A stretch of 64,000 nucleotides of DNA, taken from Eleftheria terrae. GTDB lineage: Bacteria > Pseudomonadota > Gammaproteobacteria > Burkholderiales > Burkholderiaceae_C. The notes below the pieces were generated by a model that did no database searches, was not told the DNA's origin, and was given only the letters and a program-made list of their open reading frames with translations. Below are positions 5,870 to 40,178 of this stretch, in pieces. The translations under genes were made by a program, and so were the position numbers. The stretch covers positions 3,100,001-3,164,000 of the forward strand of contig NZ_CP106951.1 in assembly GCF_030419005.1 (NCBI RefSeq), written 5' to 3'. Numbering within the stretch: position 1 is the stretch's first letter; each line of letters begins with the position of its first letter.

Positions 5870-6463
5870 ATGAACGCAACGACCCTGACCGCCACCCAGC
5901 GCGAGACCCTGGCCCACGCGGCCGAGCACAACGAAGGCCGCATCGAGTGGTTCCCCGCCAGCGTCAAGGGTGGTGCCCGCGCCAAGGTGCTGCAGGGCCT
6001 GGTGGCCCGCGGCTGGGCCTATCGGGACGGGGAACACCACGCCGTCACCGACGCGGGCTACCAGGCCGTCGGCCAAGAGCGACCTGCACCACAAGAAGAA
6101 GCGGTGGCGCTCGATGAGGACAACACGCTGGAGGATGACGTGGCGGCTGCGGAAGCCAGCTGGGCTGGCACTCAAGCGGCGCCGGCACGCAAGACACGCG
6201 CGCCCCGCGACGGCAGCAAGCAAGCGCAGGTCATTGCCTTGCTGCGCCGCCCCAGCGGCGCCACGGTGGCCGAGATCCAGGCGCTGACCGGTTGGCTGCC
6301 GCACACCGTGCGCGGCACTTTCTCTGGCACCTTCCGTAAGCGCCTGGGCCTGCAGGTGGTCTCTGACAAGGAAGATGACGGTAAGCGCGTCTACCGCATC
6401 GTTGAAGCGGGCGATAGCGAGACGGCTGGCAGCGGCGTCTTCGGCATCGCTGAGCTGCGGTAA
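5870..6463 (+). CDS. DUF3489 domain protein
   Basis: About 197 residues from ATG 5870, preferred over ATG 5861 because AAAGGA lies at a normal distance only for the downstream start. Two parts are visible. The N-terminal unit (roughly residues 10-75) contains HAAEHNEGRIEWFP and ends near AVGQERP. After an acidic linker, the C-terminal DUF3489 unit contains KQAQVIALLRRPSGATVAEI and WLPHTVRGTFSGTFRKRLG, a winged-helix-like fold thought to bind DNA. The N-terminal unit is related to the whole of the next gene. Function is unknown; a regulatory role in the phage is inferred from fold and position. Confidence 0.8.
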   Translation: MNATTLTATQRETLAHAAEHNEGRIEWFPASVKGGARAKVLQGLVARGWAYRDGEHHAVTDAGYQAVGQERPAPQEEAVALDEDNTLEDDVAAAEASWAGTQAAPARKTRAPRDGSKQAQVIALLRRPSGATVAEIQALTGWLPHTVRGTFSGTFRKRLGLQVVSDKEDDGKRVYRIVEAGDSETAGSGVFGIAELR

Positions 6464-6543
6464 TTCCCGGGTGGGCCGCTAAGCGGCCCATTTGCGAACA
6501 CCGGCACATCTGCCAGTGACCCCTTGACGCCGGGACACCCCTG

Positions 6544-6553
6544 GAGCGTTCAT
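6544..6553 (+). promoter_or_regulatory. Repeated upstream motif, copy 2
   Basis: GAGCGTTCAT, 57 bases before the next small gene. It follows a TTGACG (6524-6529) that could act as a -35 box. It matches the first ten bases of the copies at 5813 and 7016. Confidence 0.45.
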
Positions 6554-6609
6554 GCACGGCTGTGCCGGCCAGCTTGGTCCCGCGGCACGCCGACATTCAA
6601 GGAGAGACG

Positions 6610-6963
6610 ATGACCCACACCGCAGTGAACGACCTCCAGCGCTACATCCTGGAGCACGCGATTGACCACACCGAAGGGCGGATGGATTCGCTGCCGCCTA
6701 GCATTCCGGCCTCTGCACGAGATGCGCTGCTGCAGGACCTGTTCAACCTCGGCGTCGTCACCACCGACGGCGCGCGGTGGTTCGTCGCCGTGCTGGCTTA
6801 TGACCTGCTCGGGCGGGAGCGGCCACGCAAGCCCGTCAGTGACCCGTTTGCCGAGGTCGAGCAGCTCCAGCAGATCGCGACGGTGCAACGGGCGCTGAAC
6901 GGGGGCCGTCACACGGTGCACCAGCCACTGCCGAAGGGACCGTGGGCCCTGTACTCGGAGTGA
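6610..6963 (+). CDS. Small phage protein, paralogue of the DUF3489 gene's N-terminal unit
   Basis: A 117-residue protein starting MTHTAVNDLQRYILEHAID, with AAGGAG five to six bases before the ATG. Its first 70 residues align with the N-terminal half of the preceding DUF3489 gene. Shared positions include L.HA..H.EGR, a proline-rich turn, AR...LQ.L...G, DG and Y...GRERP versus Y...GQERP. It lacks the DUF3489 unit. This suggests local duplication followed by loss or gain of the C-terminal domain. No catalytic motif is visible. Function unknown. Confidence 0.7.
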   Translation: MTHTAVNDLQRYILEHAIDHTEGRMDSLPPSIPASARDALLQDLFNLGVVTTDGARWFVAVLAYDLLGRERPRKPVSDPFAEVEQLQQIATVQRALNGGRHTVHQPLPKGPWALYSE

Positions 6964-7015
6964 TCAAACAGTATCCATTTCGAGGAGCACCAGGACTTCA
7001 CTTCTTCCACCGGCG

Positions 7016-7029
7016 GAGCGTTCATAGCG
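7016..7029 (+). promoter_or_regulatory. Repeated upstream motif, copy 3
   Basis: GAGCGTTCATAGCG, identical over 14 bases to the copy at 5813 and followed by GTGTCGCA where the first copy has ACGTCGCA. It lies 40 bases before the next small gene. Confidence 0.5.
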
Positions 7030-7069
7030 GTGTCGCAGCTTCGCGGCGCATTGAAGAAGGAAGGCAGAG

Positions 7070-7444
7070 ATGAACAACATGACCCCGGCACCGGCCAGGG
7101 ACGTGACGCGCACGCCCCGCACGGTGACCTTCAACGGACGGCAAGTCCACGTGCTGGCTTTGGATGTCGCGCTCAGCTTCACCCGCAAGCCGGTTTGCCT
7201 CGACCACGTGGCGATTCACGGCGACCCGCAGAGGGTGTACATCACCACCACCCACCACCTGACAGCGGCCGAATTCGACGAGTTCACCTCGCACTTCATG
7301 CGCCGGCGGAGCTGGCTGGCCGGTGCAGGTGGATCATTCCACGACGCCGCGCTCTGCATCGAAGTCGTGGCGCCGCAGCGTCCGACCCTCTACGTCAACC
7401 CGGAAGGCGCGGACTACGCGCGCTACGTGGCGCGGCTCGGCTGA
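7070..7444 (+). CDS. Hypothetical phage protein
   Basis: A 124-residue protein preceded by a GA-rich ribosome site (GAAGGAAGG). Its first bases (ATGAACAACATGA) repeat those at the start of the DUF3489 gene, so the true start could be ATG 7079. The protein has a beta-rich look, with VTFNGRQVHVLALDVALSF and RVYITTTHHLTAAEFDEF, and a C-terminal PTLYVNPEGADYARYV. I recognise no family. It is the third member of a run of small plus-strand genes each with the same upstream motif, so it probably shares their timing of expression. Confidence 0.65.
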   Translation: MNNMTPAPARDVTRTPRTVTFNGRQVHVLALDVALSFTRKPVCLDHVAIHGDPQRVYITTTHHLTAAEFDEFTSHFMRRRSWLAGAGGSFHDAALCIEVVAPQRPTLYVNPEGADYARYVARLG

Positions 7445-7495
7445 TCAATCGGTATCAGGTAGGAGGCCAAGACCCCTTGGCTTCCTGCCCGCTCA

Positions 7496-7509
7496 GAGCG
7501 TGAATAGGG
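7496..7509 (+). promoter_or_regulatory. Repeated upstream motif, copy 4 (diverged)
   Basis: GAGCGTGAATAGGG, differing from the 14-mer at 5813 and 7016 at three positions. GACCCCTTG lies about 20 bases upstream, as it also does ahead of copy 2. It lies 32 bases before the next small gene. Confidence 0.35.
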
Positions 7510-7541
7510 TCATCACACGCACCCATCAGGAGAAAAACAGC

Positions 7542-7907
7542 ATGCACCCCAACGACGGCTTACTCGGCACACACAACCAAGCTTCGGGTTTCATTGGCGC
7601 TATGGGCCAGCGAGCATCGGCCGCTTGGCCCAAAGCAATGACGCGAATCGCCGAAGCGACCGGCGAACGGTTTGAGTCGGTTCGGGCATTCCTTGACAGC
7701 CGGTACGGCCGCCAATTTGCGGATGACGTCCTCAACTTCCACCATGCCGGCCTCGACCTAGACGCAGCGGTCGCAGCGGCGGTCAACCGCTGGCAGTCGT
7801 GGCGGGTGAGTGCGCGATCCTCAACCCACACCGGCATCCCGCGCGGCATCAGCTACCTGACCGGCTTCGTTGTTGCGGCAGCGTTCGAAGAGGAGCGCGT
7901 TGAGTAG
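7542..7907 (+). CDS. Hypothetical phage protein
   Basis: A 121-residue protein starting MHPNDGLLGTHNQ. AGGAG lies about nine bases upstream, and this start is preferred over a longer in-frame extension that would overlap the preceding gene. It is helical, with KAMTRIAEATGERFESVRAF and GRQFADDVLNFHHAGLDL, then AAVNRWQSW. No known family is recognised. It is the last of four plus-strand genes that share an upstream motif. Confidence 0.65.
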   Translation: MHPNDGLLGTHNQASGFIGAMGQRASAAWPKAMTRIAEATGERFESVRAFLDSRYGRQFADDVLNFHHAGLDLDAAVAAAVNRWQSWRVSARSSTHTGIPRGISYLTGFVVAAAFEEERVE

Positions 7908-7961
7908 TGCCACCAGCGTCGACTGGCCGATTGCTTGCTCAATGCGCGCGACCTGACTTGC

Positions 7962-8267
7962 TCAACGAGTGGCGGGCGGGATCGGTTCGTTGCCACCCGG
8001 CGGGGCGAGGGCGACGGCATCTTCAATCTCCAGTCGCCTGCCGGACCTCATGTCGTCGATAGTTTCTGCAATCAAGCGGCGCTGCTCCCGGAAAGTCGTC
8101 ACCGACTCGCGCATGGTTGCCAGCAGTTGATGGGTCAAGGTGGTGTCCCCACCCGTCTCGGCAAGACGACGGGCTGTCAGCTCCAGTTCCGCAATGTGCA
8201 GCTCGGCCTTCGCAATATCGCGGTCCGCGTCTGCCAGGTGCTCAAGTTCTTGCTCTAGGGTCGCCAT
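7962..8267 (-). CDS. Small coiled-coil phage protein
   Basis: A 101-residue, mostly helical protein with a predicted coiled coil over roughly residues 1-80 (LEQELEHLADADRDIAKAEL, then TFREQRRLIAETIDD). It is a distant paralogue of the next minus-strand gene (8379-8606). Both have HL...DR.I.K, an LE..A segment and a QRR.IA motif at matching spacing. Such small helical proteins are common near phage replication or lysogeny genes and have no assigned role. Confidence 0.6.
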   Translation of the reverse strand: MATLEQELEHLADADRDIAKAELHIAELELTARRLAETGGDTTLTHQLLATMRESVTTFREQRRLIAETIDDMRSGRRLEIEDAVALAPPGGNEPIPPATR

Positions 8268-8378
8268 GACAAGTCCCTTCCATAAACGCTGAACCGTGCT
8301 GATTCCGTACCGGAGTGCGCACCATCGGTTGTGCGCCCGAGCATCCGCGCACTGCCGGCCGTAGCAGTGCCTATCGGT

Positions 8379-8606
8379 CTATACGACACCGCCGGACGTG
8401 GCAATGGATCGGCGTTGGTCTTCGAGAACAATCAGCGCTGCTCGCAAGGCGGCCATAAGCGTCTTGCTGTTCGCCTCTTCGACGTGCCCCTTTGGAATGG
8501 TCTTCGCTGTTTCCTCCAGCTCCGCGAGTCGCGCGTTCACCTTCTCGATGTTCCGATCGATGCTCTCAAGATGGTAGAACTGCTGTGCACGGTCCGTCAC
8601 GATCAT
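8379..8606 (-). CDS. Small coiled-coil phage protein, paralogue of the preceding entry
   Basis: About 75 residues from ATG 8606 (MIVTDRAQQFYHLESIDRN). A longer frame starts at 8642 but adds a leader not shared with the paralogue. The pattern HLESIDRNIEKVNARLAELE followed by LEDQRRSIA matches the gene at 7962-8267. Predicted to be a helical bundle or coiled coil. Function unknown. It lies just downstream of the methyltransferase gene in the same direction. Confidence 0.55.
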   Translation of the reverse strand: MIVTDRAQQFYHLESIDRNIEKVNARLAELEETAKTIPKGHVEEANSKTLMAALRAALIVLEDQRRSIATSGGVV

Positions 8607-8657
8607 TCCTTCTTCGTATTGCGATCGCTGCGATCCAACCACATGAAGCGCCCGCGC

Positions 8658-9917
8658 TCAAACAGAGACGGCGGCCAGTGCATCAAATGGCTGCTGATCT
8701 GACTCACGAACAGCACTTTGCTCTGTCCACTCCTGCCAGCGGCGGATAACCACGTCGGCGTACTTGGCATCCAGCTCCATCACCCGCGCAACCCTGCCAG
8801 TTTTCTCAGCGGCGATCAGGGTCGTTCCCGAGCCAGCAAATGGGTCGAGGACAACGTCACCCGGCCGGCTCGAGTTGCGGATCGCCCGTTCCACCAGCTC
8901 GACCGGCTTCATCGTGGGGTGCAGGTCGTTCTTTGCTCGCCGATCGATCTGCCAGACGTCGCTCTGGTCGCGGTCCCCGCACCAGTGACGCTTGGCGCCC
9001 CTCGGCCAGCCGTAGAGGATCGGTTCGAACTGGCGCTGGTAGTCCGCGCTTCCCAGCGAGAAGCGGTTCTTCGCCCAGATGATGAATGTGGACCAGTGAC
9101 CGCCTGCCTCTCGGAAGGCGGCCTGCAGCGCGTCGAGCTCGCTGGAGGACATGGCTATGTACATCGCGCCGCGACAGCGCGGGACCATCAGCGCCAAAGC
9201 GTCGGCGAGGAACTGCTGGAAGCCCGCTCCGAGGGCGTCGTTCAAGATCGGGCGGGCCGCGCCGCGCTTGCGGTGCATGGCGCTTTCGGTATACGCAACG
9301 TTATAAGGAGGGTCTGCGAACACCATGTCGACCTGGCCATCGCCGAGCAGCAGCTGGTAGGCCTCGGCGGTGGTTGCATCGCCGCAGACCAGGCGGTGCT
9401 TCCCCATCAGCCAAACATCACCCGGGCGGGAGATTGGAGGCGCCTCCGGCTCCGGAACAGCGTCATCGTCCGCCTGCCCTTCCTGCTCCACCTCATCCTC
9501 GGACAGGATGTCCGCCATCTCATCGGCGTCGAAGCCGGTGAGCGACAGGTCGAAATCCGCCTCGTTCAGCTCGGCCATTTCAAGCTGGAGGAGCTCGTCG
9601 TCCCACTCCGCCCAGGTCGCCGACCGGTTCGCAAGCAAGCGAAAAGCACGAATCTGTGCGTCGGTCAGCTCATCGGCCAGTACCACTGGGATCTGCTCCA
9701 GCCCGAGCTTGATCGCGGCCTTTAGGCGAAGGTGCCCGTCAACGAGTTCGCCAGTGCTGCGGGCCACCACAGGCAAACGAAACCCAAACTCCGCGATGAC
9801 GGACGCCATTTGGTCGACCGCGTGGTCATTTTTTCTCGGATTCCGGGCATACGCGATGAGCTTGCTCGTAGGCCAGTGTTCGAGCTTGAGCGGAGGAGAG
9901 AAGCTGTGCGATGGCAT
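8658..9917 (-). CDS. ParB-like nuclease domain fused to DNA methyltransferase
   Basis: About 419 residues from ATG 9917. The N-terminal ParB/sulfiredoxin-like domain (about 15-100) has LIAYARNPRKNDHAVDQMAS and the signature GELVDGHLRLKAA. The C-terminal domain is an amino-methyltransferase of the N4-cytosine/N6-adenine group. The catalytic DPPY (about 202-205) precedes the AdoMet-binding DPFAGSGTT (about 358-366), the beta-type order. No restriction enzyme lies beside it, so it is an orphan phage methylase that could protect phage DNA or regulate transcription. The start has no strong ribosome site. The target sequence cannot be read from the protein. Confidence 0.85.
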   Translation of the reverse strand: MPSHSFSPPLKLEHWPTSKLIAYARNPRKNDHAVDQMASVIAEFGFRLPVVARSTGELVDGHLRLKAAIKLGLEQIPVVLADELTDAQIRAFRLLANRSATWAEWDDELLQLEMAELNEADFDLSLTGFDADEMADILSEDEVEQEGQADDDAVPEPEAPPISRPGDVWLMGKHRLVCGDATTAEAYQLLLGDGQVDMVFADPPYNVAYTESAMHRKRGAARPILNDALGAGFQQFLADALALMVPRCRGAMYIAMSSSELDALQAAFREAGGHWSTFIIWAKNRFSLGSADYQRQFEPILYGWPRGAKRHWCGDRDQSDVWQIDRRAKNDLHPTMKPVELVERAIRNSSRPGDVVLDPFAGSGTTLIAAEKTGRVARVMELDAKYADVVIRRWQEWTEQSAVRESDQQPFDALAAVSV

Positions 9918-34479: not shown

Positions 34480-34731
34480 GTGGCTGATGTCAATCATAGG
34501 CCGGGCGAAGCATTGCCCACAACCAGCAAGCTAGAGAGGAACGAGCGCTACCTCAGCGTCAATGGGGCGTTCCTCCCCTACGACCGAAGCCGCCAACCCT
34601 CTGGCGTGGCGGACACACCGGTACCGTGGGTGCGCCTGCGTGGCAAGTGGCTCAGGGACGCAGGCTTCGAGGTGGACACGCAGGTGCGGGTCCGCGTCAT
34701 GGCCGGGTGCTTGGTACTGACGACGGACTGA
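34480..34731 (+). CDS. SymE-family type I toxin
   Basis: An 83-residue protein from GTG 34480 with AGGAAG upstream. SymE features are ERYLSVNGAFLPYDRSRQP followed by TPVPWVRLRGKWLRDAGF and VRVMAGCLVLTTD, the SpoVT/AbrB-like swapped-hairpin fold. In E. coli SymE is an SOS-induced toxin linked to RNA decay and repressed by the antisense RNA SymR. Here no LexA box was searched exhaustively, and the antisense RNA cannot be confirmed by eye. It sits alone in an accessory stretch beside other defence-like genes. Confidence 0.82.
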   Translation: MADVNHRPGEALPTTSKLERNERYLSVNGAFLPYDRSRQPSGVADTPVPWVRLRGKWLRDAGFEVDTQVRVRVMAGCLVLTTD

Positions 34732-34761: not shown

Positions 34762-34960
34762 CCCTCCCCATGGTGCGTTGAGCCGTCGGCGCCCGTCGCT
34801 CCTGCACTTGTCCACCACAGCTGTGGACAGGTTTGTGAGCAGACGGTGCAGACCCCTTGCGAACGGGCTCCAGTAGCTGGTTCCCAGTGGCACGCTGCAA
34901 TTTCTAGCAGGTGCCCCGGCTCACCTCGCCAACCGTCACTCACCTCTGAAGGAAATGAGC

Positions 34961-35536
34961 ATGCACGCACATGATCAGGTGGCTGCGGCCATCGATTTGC
35001 GCATCAAACAACTCGCCGCCCAAGGCGCGTCTGTGGAGATCATTCTCGACCGAATGCTGGGCTTCTTGCCTGGCCTGCGGCAGATCCTCGAAGGAGCGAC
35101 AGAAGCGGAGCTTGCTGCCCTGTACGAGCGCTACGTCGGATTCCAGACGTTCGCCTGCCTGTGGCGCCATGCCTCGGACTGGGTGAGCCAGCAGGACTCG
35201 CTCAAGAGCGCGGAGCTCGCCATCCCTCGTGCACTGCATGAGCCGTTCTCGGCGATGCTGTCGGCGACGGCCGCGCTGGAGATGGCGTTTCAGTCTTGCC
35301 TCGACGCTGCAGCGCCGGATGTGCTGGCGCAGCAGCTCGCGACGCTGAGCGCCATGCACGTCGAATGGCTCCGTCAGGCCAAGCAGGTCATCAACGAGCT
35401 GGCTGGCCTCGATATTCCCTTGGAAATCACGCAGTACATCACCGACTCCGTCACCGATGCGGCTGATCGGATCAAGGTGCTGGAGGCGCAGGTCCTAGCA
35501 CGCGTTCCCAATAGCTCCGTAGCGCGAGCGGCCTAA
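34961..35536 (+). CDS. Hypothetical helical protein
   Basis: About 191 residues from ATG 34961 (MHAHDQVAAAIDLRIKQLAA). AAGGA lies seven bases upstream of this ATG and too close to the earlier ATG at 34955. The protein is almost all helix and rich in Ala and Leu (GLRQILEGATEAELAALYER, VLAQQLATLSAMHVEWLRQ). It has no transmembrane segment, no catalytic motif and no family I recognise. Good codon use and a normal ribosome site make it a likely real gene. Confidence 0.65.
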   Translation: MHAHDQVAAAIDLRIKQLAAQGASVEIILDRMLGFLPGLRQILEGATEAELAALYERYVGFQTFACLWRHASDWVSQQDSLKSAELAIPRALHEPFSAMLSATAALEMAFQSCLDAAAPDVLAQQLATLSAMHVEWLRQAKQVINELAGLDIPLEITQYITDSVTDAADRIKVLEAQVLARVPNSSVARAA

Positions 35537-35585: not shown

Positions 35586-36096
35586 TCACTGGACGGTGCC
35601 CGCCTCGGGCGTCTCCGCGGCGGCGGACACCGCCGCCTTGCGCTTCCTGGCGGCCGGTTTCGCCGCCTTCTTTGGACCGGTCTTGCGGTTGCCCGCTCCT
35701 GCGGCTCGCCGCGAGGCCTTGTTGGTGGCCGGCCGCTTGCTTGCAAGGCGCCGCTTTTTGGCTGACGCTGGACCCGCTTCTGCGGTAGCGCTGGAAGCGG
35801 TGTTCGGGACAACGACGAGGAAGCATTCGAGCGTTGCTTCGTTCTCAGTTGCCTTGCGCAGCCACCGCGGGTGGGGGCCACGTCCCGACCAACTGTTGCC
35901 CCTGGCCGTCTTGGTATTTGAAAGCCGCAGCGGATCCAGCATGACGCCCGAACGCGTTTCGCGTAGGGACCTTCCCGCCGCCAAACACTTCGTCCGCCGT
36001 AAACCCGTAGAGCGCGATCTGCTGCTTGATCTGCTGGAGAACGCCGGCGCCTTCCCTTCGCCACTTACATCTAGCAGCGGAGGAGGCTTTCGGCAT
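35586..36096 (-). pseudogene. H-NS-like nucleoid protein, frameshifted
   Basis: Reading from ATG 36096 (AGGAG nine bases upstream), the frame gives EGAGVLQQIKQQIALYGFTA, the end of the H-NS oligomerisation region, and then FKYQDGQG. The conserved DNA-binding loop NSWSGRGPHPRWL lies in another frame. Removing one base in the G4 run (plus-strand CCCC 35899-35902) joins the two into KYQDGQGNSWSGRGPHPRWL. After the join comes a long Lys/Arg/Ala tail (PKKAAKPAARKRKAA). As it stands the gene stops early. It is either a true pseudogene or a sequencing error in a homopolymer. Confidence 0.75.
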
Positions 36097-36773
36097 TGCA
36101 CGGCTCTCCTGGAATCAGGATCAACGCAGCATACATGGGGAAGGACGATCCGACCGATATAACAGGAACTCTTTCGAGCCCAGAAGCAGGAGATTGACAA
36201 GCCCCACGCCACTGCGCAGGAGCGCAAAAGGCAGAGGTTCCTAAACGGGTGTTTCATCCACCGTGCGAGCATCTGGGAACTCGGCCCTGCGCTAAAGGCG
36301 GCCCTGCGATTATTCGGGACCAAGATTGTTCGGACGTGTCCGCCAGCGAATGATGCGAATCATAGGCGTTGGAGAAGGGCTGACTCGCGCGGTCTTGGAC
36401 TGGAAGGCCTGTTGCGAGCGCAGATCTGTGTTCGCCCCGTTAACGCGGTTTCCGACACTGACCGGAGCGTGGTGCGGGCTGAACTCGGAGCTCGAAAGCG
36501 CAGGACGGTTGTAACGTGTGAGGGTGTTCGGTGATCGCATTCTGCCTTCGACAAAGTGCGGGCACCAGATGGTCGGGCATGGAAGTGTCCACCGGGCTGA
36601 AAACTTGCGGTCAACACGCCCCGCCATGGCTCCGCGCAGACACGGGCCGTTTAGAGGTCTTCCGTACTGGACCAATTCGCCTTACGGCCGCCGTCATTCT
36701 TCAGTATGAAGCCAGGCGACTTGTTACCGGATAGCCGGAGAAGCAGCCCCTTCCAATTTGGTGCAATTGGCGA
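36097..36773. other. Interval with no convincing gene
   Basis: About 680 bases. Short frames exist on both strands but none has a good start or a recognisable product. Base composition shifts here from GC-rich to more mixed sequence, so it may be a junction between two acquired segments. Confidence 0.5.
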
Positions 36774-37505
36774 TCAGCTCCCATTCTCATTCGGCCGCAC
36801 TTTCGCTTCGTCAATCCGCCTTGCAAGCAAGCTGAGCATGACAAGATACTGCGCCGCCTTCACGGCATTCAGGTCGTGCGTCAGAGAATGTGCCTTCACG
36901 TTGCGAACGCCGGTATAAACCCCCTCATATATCATGAGAAACCCCTTTTGGTCATTCTGGCCGGACTCACTATCCAAATCGCTTAAGATCAGGATGCCGT
37001 TTTTTAGACCGAACGCCTGCCCAACGAGATCTTTTCCATCAAGCTTTAATCCTGTGCGGGCCCGCAGCATTTCCATTACCGCCATCACCCCATTAAGCAC
37101 CGACTCCCGTAGAAAATCAGCTTTATACTGAGGCAAGGAACTTTCGACGATCGCAGGATGCAGCAACTCTTCAAAACCGACCGGTTTCATTACATTAGCA
37201 CCCATCCTCGCCACTCTTTCCGCTGCAACGAGGATGTCAGGCAAGTCACTGCCCAAAATATCGTCATAGTCACCGGCCATGCCGAAGTGTATATGGCGAC
37301 CGAGGGCGCCTACTCGGCCAGAATTGCCGAGATCCGGATCGGCTTGCCTCCATAAACGAAGCAGCGCTTCATAGTCTGCTTTAAGATAACCATTGATTTT
37401 TTTCGCCGCCTCCTTTTCGTCAATTTCGAGATGCGCTTGGGCATCCAACGCCTTCTCCTTTATTTCACGACACTTTTCGTAGACTGACACCAACCATTCA
37501 ACCAT
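36774..37505 (-). CDS. TIGR02391-family protein
   Basis: A 243-residue protein. The C-terminal region matches the TIGR02391 (Hypoth_Ymh) type: ADFLRESVLNGVMAVMEMLR, KLDGKDLVGQAFGL, then GFLMIYEGVYTGVRNVKAHS and a final YLVMLSLLARRIDEAKV. The R-N-x-x-A-H element is RNVKAHS. These proteins occur in defence islands and are thought to relate to Abi/HEPN-type helical RNases. It uses more AT-rich codons than the core genes and lies 110 bases downstream of the GHKL-nuclease gene in the same direction, so they may form one operon. Confidence 0.8.
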   Translation of the reverse strand: MVEWLVSVYEKCREIKEKALDAQAHLEIDEKEAAKKINGYLKADYEALLRLWRQADPDLGNSGRVGALGRHIHFGMAGDYDDILGSDLPDILVAAERVARMGANVMKPVGFEELLHPAIVESSLPQYKADFLRESVLNGVMAVMEMLRARTGLKLDGKDLVGQAFGLKNGILILSDLDSESGQNDQKGFLMIYEGVYTGVRNVKAHSLTHDLNAVKAAQYLVMLSLLARRIDEAKVRPNENGS

Positions 37506-37615
37506 CTTATTTCACCCCGAAAACTGAAGGCCGCCTCAAATCGGATGACCAAATCTACGTACCAAATTGTTGCACTGCAAATCGCCGCTCCGCTGCAATG
37601 AGTGCAGCAGCAAGA

Positions 37616-39619
37616 TTAGTCGATGGAATCATCGTGATTAAAACTTTCACTGTCTTGTTCACGCACAAATCCATCATCAAATACTCCTTCCAGGTACTGT
37701 GCATGGCGCTCCTGCAGGTACTTTAAAGCATCTCCTTTATCAGCCTGAAACTCCAATCGTTCCTGGAAAAATTGGAGGCGCGCACGATTCTCGTCAAGTA
37801 CCTGTGCCCAAGTCTTCACATACACCGAGACGTTGTCCTTCTTGTAGATCTGCCCACTCTCGTCTGCGATCCGTCGCGCCGCATATTCACCATAGCTATC
37901 ACTAATGACCCAAAAAATCCAACGCACGCCCACACCTTTGAAGCGCTCGTCGGCAGCAACGGAGAAGGCATACTTTTCGATCTGGGTAATTTCGTCGGAG
38001 TCGATTGAAACCTTTGGCCGCTTCAATTCCACAACTAAGTGAGTGACCTCATTAGCTTTGTGCCGACGTGTAGCCTTCGAGAGCATCAAATCCACAATCC
38101 CTCTGGTCTGTGAAACATGCTTCACTGGGGCATCGATAACAACCTCTTCACCAAGGATTTTCATGTGGGCGCGCAACACCTCAGTTAATGAGCGGTCGTC
38201 GACAGACAATGTAAACTCTTCACCGAACAACCAACAATTCTCTGCGATTATTCTGTGCAGCTGAGTGCGCTCCTTGAGCCTCTTTTTAGACTCATCATCA
38301 AATAAGATCGCGTCCAGTCCCGCAACAAACTTGATTCTGTCGGCCACCACTTTTGCCGAACTGATAATGGATGAAAGAGAAACGTCCTGTAGTAGCCCAG
38401 CCAATTCATCTCGTTTGCGCTTAGGAAGATTAAGCACCTCCGTTAGGATCAACTGCAGATCTTCGGGACTCTTTTCGATTGCTTGCCGAAGCATCCGTAA
38501 TTGAAACTGCTTATTTTTTGGAGGCGATCGACTAAACTCAGGGAGATGACGCGCAACGTTCAGCGCCACAATATCAAAAACTTGACGCTCAACGTACTCC
38601 ACTTGAGTCGCGGGGTCTCCGACATATGGATATATCTTTTCAGATTTCCATTCCTGAACGAAGCTACTGGCCTCCGATGCCGCCCTCATTCGAAAATAAT
38701 CCTTGATGGCCCTTTGCGCCTCATCGAGCGCAAGGATAACTGGCTCCTGCATTTCCGCCAAATCGGCCACACCGTCCTTTTGAGTTTTGTTCATGTACGG
38801 CGACTGGAGATAGGCCGTGAACTGGAAATTTCCCACATGGAATCGACGCCCGACGTGAACCAACGGAAACTTTTTATCGTTGCACAGAAATAGTGCCCGC
38901 TGTGAGATACCGTTCCATTCAATTAGCTCAAGGCGAACAGGATAATTCTTACCTTCAGAGACGATGTCACTGAGATTGAAGGCCTGTCGGTTAGCCATTA
39001 CCTTGGTAGGATCAACTCGCCTACCTCCCACAGTTACCCGGAGGTTTTCGTAGTCGGACAGATAGAGCGCAAATATCTCCGTTAGCTCATCAAGAGCAGC
39101 ATCGCTGTCGAGCGTCCGATAGTCCTTGTGAGGATTGGACACAACCAGCGTCACGCCTCGCTCTACGCCGGGCGCCGCCTCAGCCTCGTCAGAGATCGCG
39201 ACATGACGAATGTCGCTGGTGGACATGCTGATTTTGTAGGACCAAAGTGTTCCACCTTTGTCGTACACAACCTCCCACTCCGCGTGCGATCCGATCGCAA
39301 ACGCTTTGAAGCGCCCACGCCCCTCTTGTCCATGCAGGTGGCGGCCGCTTGGCGTTGTTGATCGATTCTTCTTCCACGACCCGCCCAGCTTGCGGAAGCA
39401 TTCCGCGGCCTCACTACGCTGAAGACCTAGTCCGTTGTCGCGGACGGTCACTCGGTCTAAGGTACCCATCGCGTTGTGCTCGAAGGAGACGCTCACCCGG
39501 TCAGCATCTGCGTCAAGTCCATTCCAGATCAGTTCGGACAGTGCTTGGACCGGCTTGGCACGCGCGTTCTTCTCTAGATGGTCCGGCTCAACTTCGACTC
39601 GGTATTGCGTAACGGCCAC
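37616..39619 (-). CDS. GHKL-ATPase fused to Shedu/DUF4263-like PD-(D/E)XK nuclease
   Basis: About 667 residues from GTG 39619, chosen because GGAGAAG lies six bases upstream, while the ATG at 39655 has none. The N-terminal GHKL (Hsp90/MORC-type) ATPase has the N-box ELIWNGLDADA (about 29-39), DNGLGL (61-66) and GQEGRGRFK (97-105). A helical middle follows. The C-terminal nuclease has LHRIIAENCWLFG (about 454-466), the Asp of RGIVDLML, the E-x-K of VVELKRP (about 530-535) and ITQIEKYA. ATP-driven clamp closing could gate the nuclease. A defence role is inferred from architecture and island context. Confidence 0.82.
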   Translation of the reverse strand: MAVTQYRVEVEPDHLEKNARAKPVQALSELIWNGLDADADRVSVSFEHNAMGTLDRVTVRDNGLGLQRSEAAECFRKLGGSWKKNRSTTPSGRHLHGQEGRGRFKAFAIGSHAEWEVVYDKGGTLWSYKISMSTSDIRHVAISDEAEAAPGVERGVTLVVSNPHKDYRTLDSDAALDELTEIFALYLSDYENLRVTVGGRRVDPTKVMANRQAFNLSDIVSEGKNYPVRLELIEWNGISQRALFLCNDKKFPLVHVGRRFHVGNFQFTAYLQSPYMNKTQKDGVADLAEMQEPVILALDEAQRAIKDYFRMRAASEASSFVQEWKSEKIYPYVGDPATQVEYVERQVFDIVALNVARHLPEFSRSPPKNKQFQLRMLRQAIEKSPEDLQLILTEVLNLPKRKRDELAGLLQDVSLSSIISSAKVVADRIKFVAGLDAILFDDESKKRLKERTQLHRIIAENCWLFGEEFTLSVDDRSLTEVLRAHMKILGEEVVIDAPVKHVSQTRGIVDLMLSKATRRHKANEVTHLVVELKRPKVSIDSDEITQIEKYAFSVAADERFKGVGVRWIFWVISDSYGEYAARRIADESGQIYKKDNVSVYVKTWAQVLDENRARLQFFQERLEFQADKGDALKYLQERHAQYLEGVFDDGFVREQDSESFNHDDSID

Positions 39620-40064
39620 TGTTGCTTCTCCGATGAGGGCCAAGGTAAGACTCATAGATCATTCGCCCGACCGTATTGTGAGACTACGTAGCTAGCTTTG
39701 GGCTATCAGCTTTGAGCTCCAGTAAGCACCGTGATGGTCAAGAGATACTGGAGAAGGCCGTTCTGGTACCGCCAACTTCGCGAGAAGTGGATACCCATTT
39801 TTTGGCTCCGTGCGGTCGTCCGAGAAGGCATGGCGGTCTCCGTCTCTGCCCTGCCAAGACGGTTCGCAACCGCTCTACTCGACACACGGATAAGTCCTTG
39901 TCAGCAAAGAACTTCTTCTCGCGCCGACCAGAAAAAGTTGTCTCTTTTTTAGAGAAGAGAGCGCAGAAAGGAATCCAACTGGGCCGAAAACAGACCCAAA
40001 GTAGCGGCCCCTTGGCACAGGAAGAACGGCCCTGAAGCCCGCACTGACGCGGGAAAGGCACAAA
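39620..40064. other. Interval between island gene and tRNA-Phe, no gene
   Basis: About 450 bases without a convincing frame. It should contain the promoter of the GHKL-nuclease gene and, if the island integrated at the tRNA, the attachment site. No second copy of the tRNA 3' end was found in the island. Confidence 0.45.
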
Positions 40065-40070
40065 GCAAAA

Positions 40071-40094
40071 CGCCCAACCGAGACCGGTTGGGCG
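40071..40094 (-). terminator. Rho-independent terminator of tRNA-Phe
   Basis: A 10-base perfect stem (40071-40080 with 40085-40094, loop AGAC), followed on the minus strand by TTTTGC. It lies nine bases past the tRNA 3' end. Confidence 0.85.
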
Positions 40095-40102
40095 CTGAAT
40101 TT

Positions 40103-40178
40103 TGGTGGCCTAGGGCGGAATCGAACCACCGACACAAGGATTTTCAATCCTCTGCTCTACCGACTGAGCTACCAGGCC
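40103..40178 (-). tRNA. tRNA-Phe (GAA)
   Basis: A 76-base tRNA with encoded CCA. On the minus strand it reads GGCCTGGTAGCTCAGTCGGT at the 5' end, has the anticodon loop TTGAAAA (anticodon GAA), the T-loop GGTTCGATTCC and an acceptor stem GGCCTAG paired with CTAGGCC (allowing the usual G-C closure). Its 3' end points to the accessory region, consistent with use of this gene as an integration site for islands. It is followed by a strong terminator. Confidence 0.97.

Follow-up and report, generated by a model that had tools for sequence, protein, structure and literature searches.

The question raised by this locus is whether two adjacent, AT-rich genes beside a tRNA gene of Eleftheria terrae form a single anti-phage system or are separate genes that have come to lie together. 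Both are found in a 64,000-nucleotide stretch of contig NZ_CP106951.1 (positions 3,100,001 to 3,164,000; hereafter the window, in whose numbering coordinates are given). The larger gene (37616..39619, minus strand) encodes a 667-residue protein in which we read a GHKL ATPase at the N terminus and a PD-(D/E)XK-type nuclease at the C terminus. The smaller gene (36774..37505, minus strand) lies downstream on the same strand, across a gap of 110 bases (37506..37615), and encodes a 243-residue protein of the TIGR02391/PF09509 (Hypoth_Ymh) family, a predicted HEPN ribonuclease. An earlier note on this DNA, made from sequence alone, had located both open reading frames (ORFs) correctly and had proposed the two products as one defence system. 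In our assessment they are likely to be independent of each other: two defence genes, each acquired laterally, at a site next to tRNA-Phe where the chromosome varies. We read them as independent because the pair is kept in 0/48 loci of the HEPN gene, in 0/42 of the genomes behind those loci and in 0/30 loci of the GHKL-nuclease gene. By these gene-neighbourhood counts, which the earlier note had itself named as able to refute its proposal, the two-gene operonic system is rejected; the pairing carried the novelty claimed for the locus, and it is not supported.

The ATPase half of the larger protein matches the Pfam family HATPase_c_3 (E = 8.4e-14), with the predicted ATP-binding domain at 39218..39547 (minus strand; residues 37-146 of a 679-residue reading). 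An alignment of the window protein with 16 relatives, 19-48% identical to it and drawn from the first 21 GHKL loci (numbered, like all relatives' loci, with the prefix L; L073-L076 and L087 were left out), shows that Glu41, Asn45, Asp73, Gly75 and Gly77 are invariant in 17/17 sequences. Glu41 and Asn45 belong to the N-box ELIWN (39521..39535, minus strand), and the conserved N-box and DxGxG residues, taken with the Pfam match, are those expected of the paraMORC3/VcSduA type of ATPase discussed below. In the C-terminal part, Asp522 (38090-38092, minus strand) and the paired E-x-K motif ELK, with Glu543 and Lys545 (38021..38029, minus strand), are likewise invariant in all 17. The nuclease is thus recognised at motif level, and the predicted structure of this half is poor, with a predicted local distance difference test score (pLDDT) under 50 over residues 421-540. 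The structure prediction that the earlier note had proposed as a check was more informative for the N-terminal half, which resembles Hsp90 and MORC2; structure matches by VIA fall mainly on residues 12-330. Judged by these features, the window protein is a putative fusion of a GHKL ATPase and a PD-(D/E)XK-type nuclease, as had been proposed. The 667-residue product starts at a GTG (39617-39619); an upstream ATG at 39655 would give a 679-residue ORF (37616-39655, minus strand). We prefer the GTG because most aligned homologues begin there and a GGAG lies 9-12 bases upstream.

The nuclease half has its best Pfam match in HSDR_N_2 at E = 2e-4, below the Pfam cut-off; when E values up to 1 are admitted, 14/14 proteins in the family alignment show the same match, the best at 2.8e-5. 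The label DUF4263/Shedu, which this half had been given, denotes a distant resemblance. Profile-profile comparison of the C-terminal part (profile made without L069) with five Shedu SduA_C sequences gave E = 7.7e-5 and a probability of 62, a suggestive indication of distant PD-(D/E)XK nuclease similarity to SduA. The Shedu family itself, PF14082, has no match in the genome at E 1e-5, a search in which 5/200 genomes of the order do match, and hmmscan found none at E 10; the N-terminal half differs from that of SduA. For the whole protein NCBIfam gives as best match NF050001, the BbrUII/HgiDII restriction enzyme family (E = 1.6e-13), which aligns largely with the ATPase portion; the score of 50 bits falls short of the cut-off of 550, and the protein is not a member. 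A phage protein family that has no functional description, phrog_6203, matches over the full length (residues 24-639, E = 2.1e-69).

An ATP-gated nuclease had been put forward as an unusual anti-phage device, but the design was published in 2008 as paraMORC3, and VcSduA, which has the same layout, was tested in 2025. As Iyer, Abhiman and Aravind describe it (PMC2292703), paraMORC3 comprises GHKL ATPases with a C-terminal restriction endonuclease (RE)-fold domain carrying E-D-ExK residues, is prevalent in proteobacteria and includes a standalone subset without conserved neighbours. The window protein resembles it in its order of GHKL domain, middle domain and RE-fold nuclease with E-D-ExK, and could belong with the standalone subset. 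Some paraMORC3 genes are reported there in restriction-modification operons, whereas the C5 methylase (PF00145, the sole methylase family searched) nearest to the window genes is ~124 kb away in the genome; a restriction-modification context for them is not supported by this search. Elsewhere such a context does occur: the GHKL loci L068, L071 and L091 have a neighbour of a family that is also found in L048, where it is a C5 methylase, and on a Phaeobacter plasmid (L147:3091-10004) the GHKL-nuclease gene overlaps a type ISP restriction-modification gene by 4 bases. Some members may accordingly work in a restriction-type operon.

The closest functional precedent is VcSduA of Vibrio cholerae, reported in 2025 as a single-gene anti-phage protein with an N-terminal GHKL ATPase and a C-terminal PD-(D/E)XK domain (PMC12137116). 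According to that report, phage protection is abolished by E27A in the ATPase and by K557A in the nuclease, homologues occur in ~1.2% of the genomes examined, and GHKL-containing Shedu proteins are placed in Shedu type I-D. Control of the nuclease by the ATPase is hypothesised there, with a modelled dimer and a clamp-like middle domain. The window protein shares the two terminal domains, the single-gene organisation and the variable genomic location; VcSduA's own neighbouring pair, GrwAB, is described as an independent system. On sequence grounds we therefore place the GHKL-nuclease, as a predicted further member, in an already characterised kind (paraMORC3/VcSduA-like). It is probably an anti-phage protein, and we infer that it most likely works alone as a restriction factor of the VcSduA type. 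The GHKL domain would bind ATP and dimerise, the middle domain would encircle DNA, alone or in complex with protein, like a clamp, and hydrolysis of the ATP would license the C-terminal domain to cut invading phage DNA; ATP-gated cutting of this sort, as proposed for VcSduA, is the most likely activity of the larger gene.

Family membership of the smaller protein is clear, as the earlier note had it: it matches PF09509 at E = 3.1e-26 (92 bits against a curated cut-off of 25) and TIGR02391 at E = 9.8e-20 (70.9 bits against 39.45), and PADLOC returns Aga_HEPN (7.9e-16) and PD-Lambda-3_B. It carries the HEPN-type motif RNVKAH (36888..36905, minus strand; R201, N202 and H206), an instance of RNxxxH whose R, N and H are invariant in 18/18 aligned sequences. 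The PF09509 match and this motif are features of the Ymh/TIGR02391 family, which Anantharaman and colleagues placed in the HEPN superfamily in 2013 (PMC3710099). They report Ymh domains alone or fused to paraMORC, AbiJ-NTD1 or AbiTii, and Ymh genes in operons with restriction-modification genes. Unlike the paraMORC-Ymh fusions, the window protein is a solo gene product with its own conserved N-terminal part and no fused ATPase. Evidence for the fold itself is weak: Foldseek found no match of the model in the structure database at E 0.001, VIA matched it mostly to unrelated helical bundles, and the HEPN profile found no PDB sequence at E 10. From what is known of the family, we would regard the smaller gene as coding for a HEPN-type ribonuclease of its own, which would cleave RNA during infection and probably serve in abortive infection or as a backup effector.

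The genes around HEPN relatives are mixed, and the idea that this family sits in defence islands is borne out for some of them. Two of the relatives scanned lie near defence-type genes, L024 near an AbiJ_NTD4 gene and L031 near OLD-like and UvrD genes, while the HEPN genes of L020 and L039 lie among genes that, judged from their first residues only, were not recognised as defence. On a Massilia plasmid the HEPN gene adjoins genes for a phage integrase, a GIY-YIG nuclease and a DUF4209 protein. A few neighbours deserve mention in their own right. L031 encodes a 999-residue protein (5914-8913) in which a caspase-like domain (PF00656) is joined to a DEAD helicase; near it are the Ymh HEPN gene, the OLD-like/UvrD pair and a gene that its similarity to L024 marks as AbiJ-NTD4-like. 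At L024:5918-9987 two large genes (651 and 706 residues), without a Pfam match at 0.001, stand directly before the Ymh HEPN gene, and L093 carries genes similar to this pair. In Salinimonas (L027:1-12197) the HEPN gene is part of a run of mostly small same-strand genes that might be integron cassettes.

Whether the two genes are kept together was examined from both sides. No GHKL-nuclease was found in the fetched flanks of 48 HEPN loci from reference genomes, 28 of which score above 250 bits to the HEPN profile; at least 2.5 kb was available on both sides in 41 of these 48, as in 16 of the first 21 GHKL loci. Searching whole genomes behind 42 of the 48 (the most distant, L059-L064, were left out) at E 1e-30 found no GHKL-nuclease anywhere, with a query that does find the gene in the window's own genome. 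HEPN loci outside the 48, five from a sample of the order (L093-L097, of which L093 and L094 seem to be duplicates of L025 and L035) and two on viral contigs (L079, L080), were also without it. From the other side, no HEPN gene was found in the fetched flanks of 30 GHKL-nuclease loci, comprising 14 viral-contig, seven genome and four plasmid loci and five from a search of the genus Paraburkholderia. Several of the 30 are incomplete or disrupted: L076, L087, L160, L161, L088 (which has one stop) and L146 (in two frames). None of the first 21 that were aligned exceeds 48% identity to the window protein; the plasmid and Paraburkholderia loci were added for closer relatives and, together with the whole-genome search, made the pairing slightly less probable. 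Four Paraburkholderia loci are ~62-64% identical to the window protein and have no HEPN gene nearby. Three of the loci from the genus search are full-length (62-64%); the P. hospita plasmid copy (L146:9962-12338; 62%) is split over two frames and is either broken or misassembled. Clustering of neighbours took in 42/48 HEPN loci and 14/21 GHKL loci.

Broader samples agree. In the order, the GHKL gene is present in 3/399 genomes and the HEPN gene in 12/399, and both occur only in the window's own genome. Matches to the GHKL gene occur in 47 plasmid records, 34 of them covering at least 80% of the query, and matches to the HEPN protein in 88, only one to that extent; no accession is common to the 47 and the 60 listed of the 88, and neighbours were read for four GHKL records and one HEPN record. 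The GHKL gene is in two phage records and the HEPN gene in none. A comparison of listed homologues (117 GHKL, 119 HEPN), which is weak evidence, found no source record in common, and we found no paper in the open-access literature that describes the pair. In the genomes and loci examined, the pair is not conserved.

A true two-gene system, in which the GHKL-nuclease would sense and cut phage DNA and the HEPN protein would act as a linked arm, shutting the cell down should cutting fail, is consequently very unlikely, although it has arguments of its own. The genes share a strand, and no terminator-like site is predicted in the 110-base gap, so that co-transcription is possible; promoter- and terminator-like sites are near chance level. 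GHKL-Ymh HEPN fusions have also been described (PMC3710099), and one of the kind reported in 2013 is present at L048:8750-10387, where a 546-residue product combines HATPase_c_3 with PF09509 at its C terminus and the neighbouring gene codes for a C5 cytosine methylase. Such fusions indicate that GHKL ATPases and this HEPN family can work together. The fused GHKL of L048, however, shows no nuclease domain among its Pfam matches, and the neighbourhood, whole-genome and plasmid counts above all stand against the linked-arm model.

Several of these points also weigh against our preferred reading of two independent genes, and others join them. The absence of a predicted terminator leaves room for a shared transcript, and a functional link between GHKL and HEPN is conceivable, no more, because another GHKL type is fused to the same HEPN family. 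The nearest GHKL homologues are 66-83% identical to the window protein, against ~62-64% for the closest read in context, and the nearest HEPN homologues 62-67%, against 61% (L017 and L018). Since these nearest homologues, metagenome relatives included, lie outside the context counts, a lineage-limited pair keeps a small probability. For the larger protein, the low pLDDT of the nuclease half counts against the assignment, as does the spacing between the conserved glutamate and lysine, which is 530 residues in VcSduA (published numbering), 504 in the window protein and 500-509 across the 17 sequences; orthology to VcSduA is thus not established, and the comparison holds at the level of layout.

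A housekeeping or repair function of MutL type, in place of defence, is similarly improbable for the GHKL-nuclease. Weak matches to MutL in PDB and NCBIfam point that way, and for paraMORC genes that lie apart from restriction-modification systems the 2008 paper allows a role in repair (PMC2292703). A housekeeping function would fit poorly with the distribution of the gene, which is patchy (1/150 genomes in the family sample, 3/399 in the order, 6/369 in the class, and 5/144 in the genus to which the Paraburkholderia genome of L032 belongs) and extends to the 47 plasmid records and 14 viral-contig loci. The gene is also AT-rich, and VcSduA, of the same layout, is reported to be anti-phage (PMC12137116).

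The setting of the two genes is consistent with lateral acquisition. Between 37 and 39 kb the G+C fraction falls to 0.48-0.50, where the remaining 1-kb steps of the window have 0.56-0.76; the earlier note had observed this AT-richness, and the two genes lie, as also noted, on the 3' side of tRNA-Phe (GAA) (40103..40178, minus strand; ARAGORN), whose 3' end faces them. We fetched this site from 12 relatives (eight of the same genus, four of the same family), out of 26 further genomes that carry the response-regulator gene, and obtained 2.7-10.4 kb of sequence past the tRNA. The tRNA gene is kept in 12/12, and in all of them similarity to the window ends within 39837-40103; in the fetched stretches none of the 12 matches the window's 26.0-39.8 kb, and neither gene is present. 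The congener G904 has its counterparts of the SymE-like and H-NS-like genes at 34.0-36.1 kb of the window ~13-15 kb beyond tRNA-Phe, and in G908 a SymE-region match lies ~20 kb and a shorter match ~27 kb beyond it. The differing sequence and the displaced SymE/H-NS-like homologues suggest a site at which relatives carry different cargo. A tRNA-integrated genomic island was considered and rejected: neither of two segments from the tRNA 3' end recurs in the window, with up to 3 mismatches allowed, and no integrase was found among the eight neighbouring ORFs to which the search extended. Nearby in the window are a SymE-family toxin gene (34480-34731, plus strand; PF08845, E = 9.1e-16), a 193-residue ORF without a Pfam match at E 1 (34955-35536, plus strand) and, adjoining the AT-rich genes, an ORF with an H-NS C-terminal domain (35586-36323, minus strand; PF00816, E = 5.7e-6, just over the cut-off), a possible silencer of foreign DNA.

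The same setting could be taken for a decaying or silent island in which one or both genes no longer function: an AT-rich insert among GC-rich genes that lacks a tRNA-end repeat and a recognised integrase, from a family with broken relatives such as the split plasmid copy L146. We think there is little chance of this, as both window ORFs are full-length and retain every conserved catalytic-type residue. Least probable of all is a young, lineage-limited two-arm defence, the split counterpart of a GHKL-HEPN fusion, in which one ATPase cycle would control both the protein's own DNA cut and its neighbour's RNA cut.

Were the two proteins to cooperate, they would be a case of GHKL ATPases coupled in trans to HEPN effectors, and the counts argue against this; a tempting but unsupported pairing is thereby corrected. 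Taken as two independent genes, the locus adds a betaproteobacterial-type member to the GHKL-nuclease group, for which ATP gating is still a hypothesis in the 2025 report and anti-phage activity was shown there (PMC12137116).

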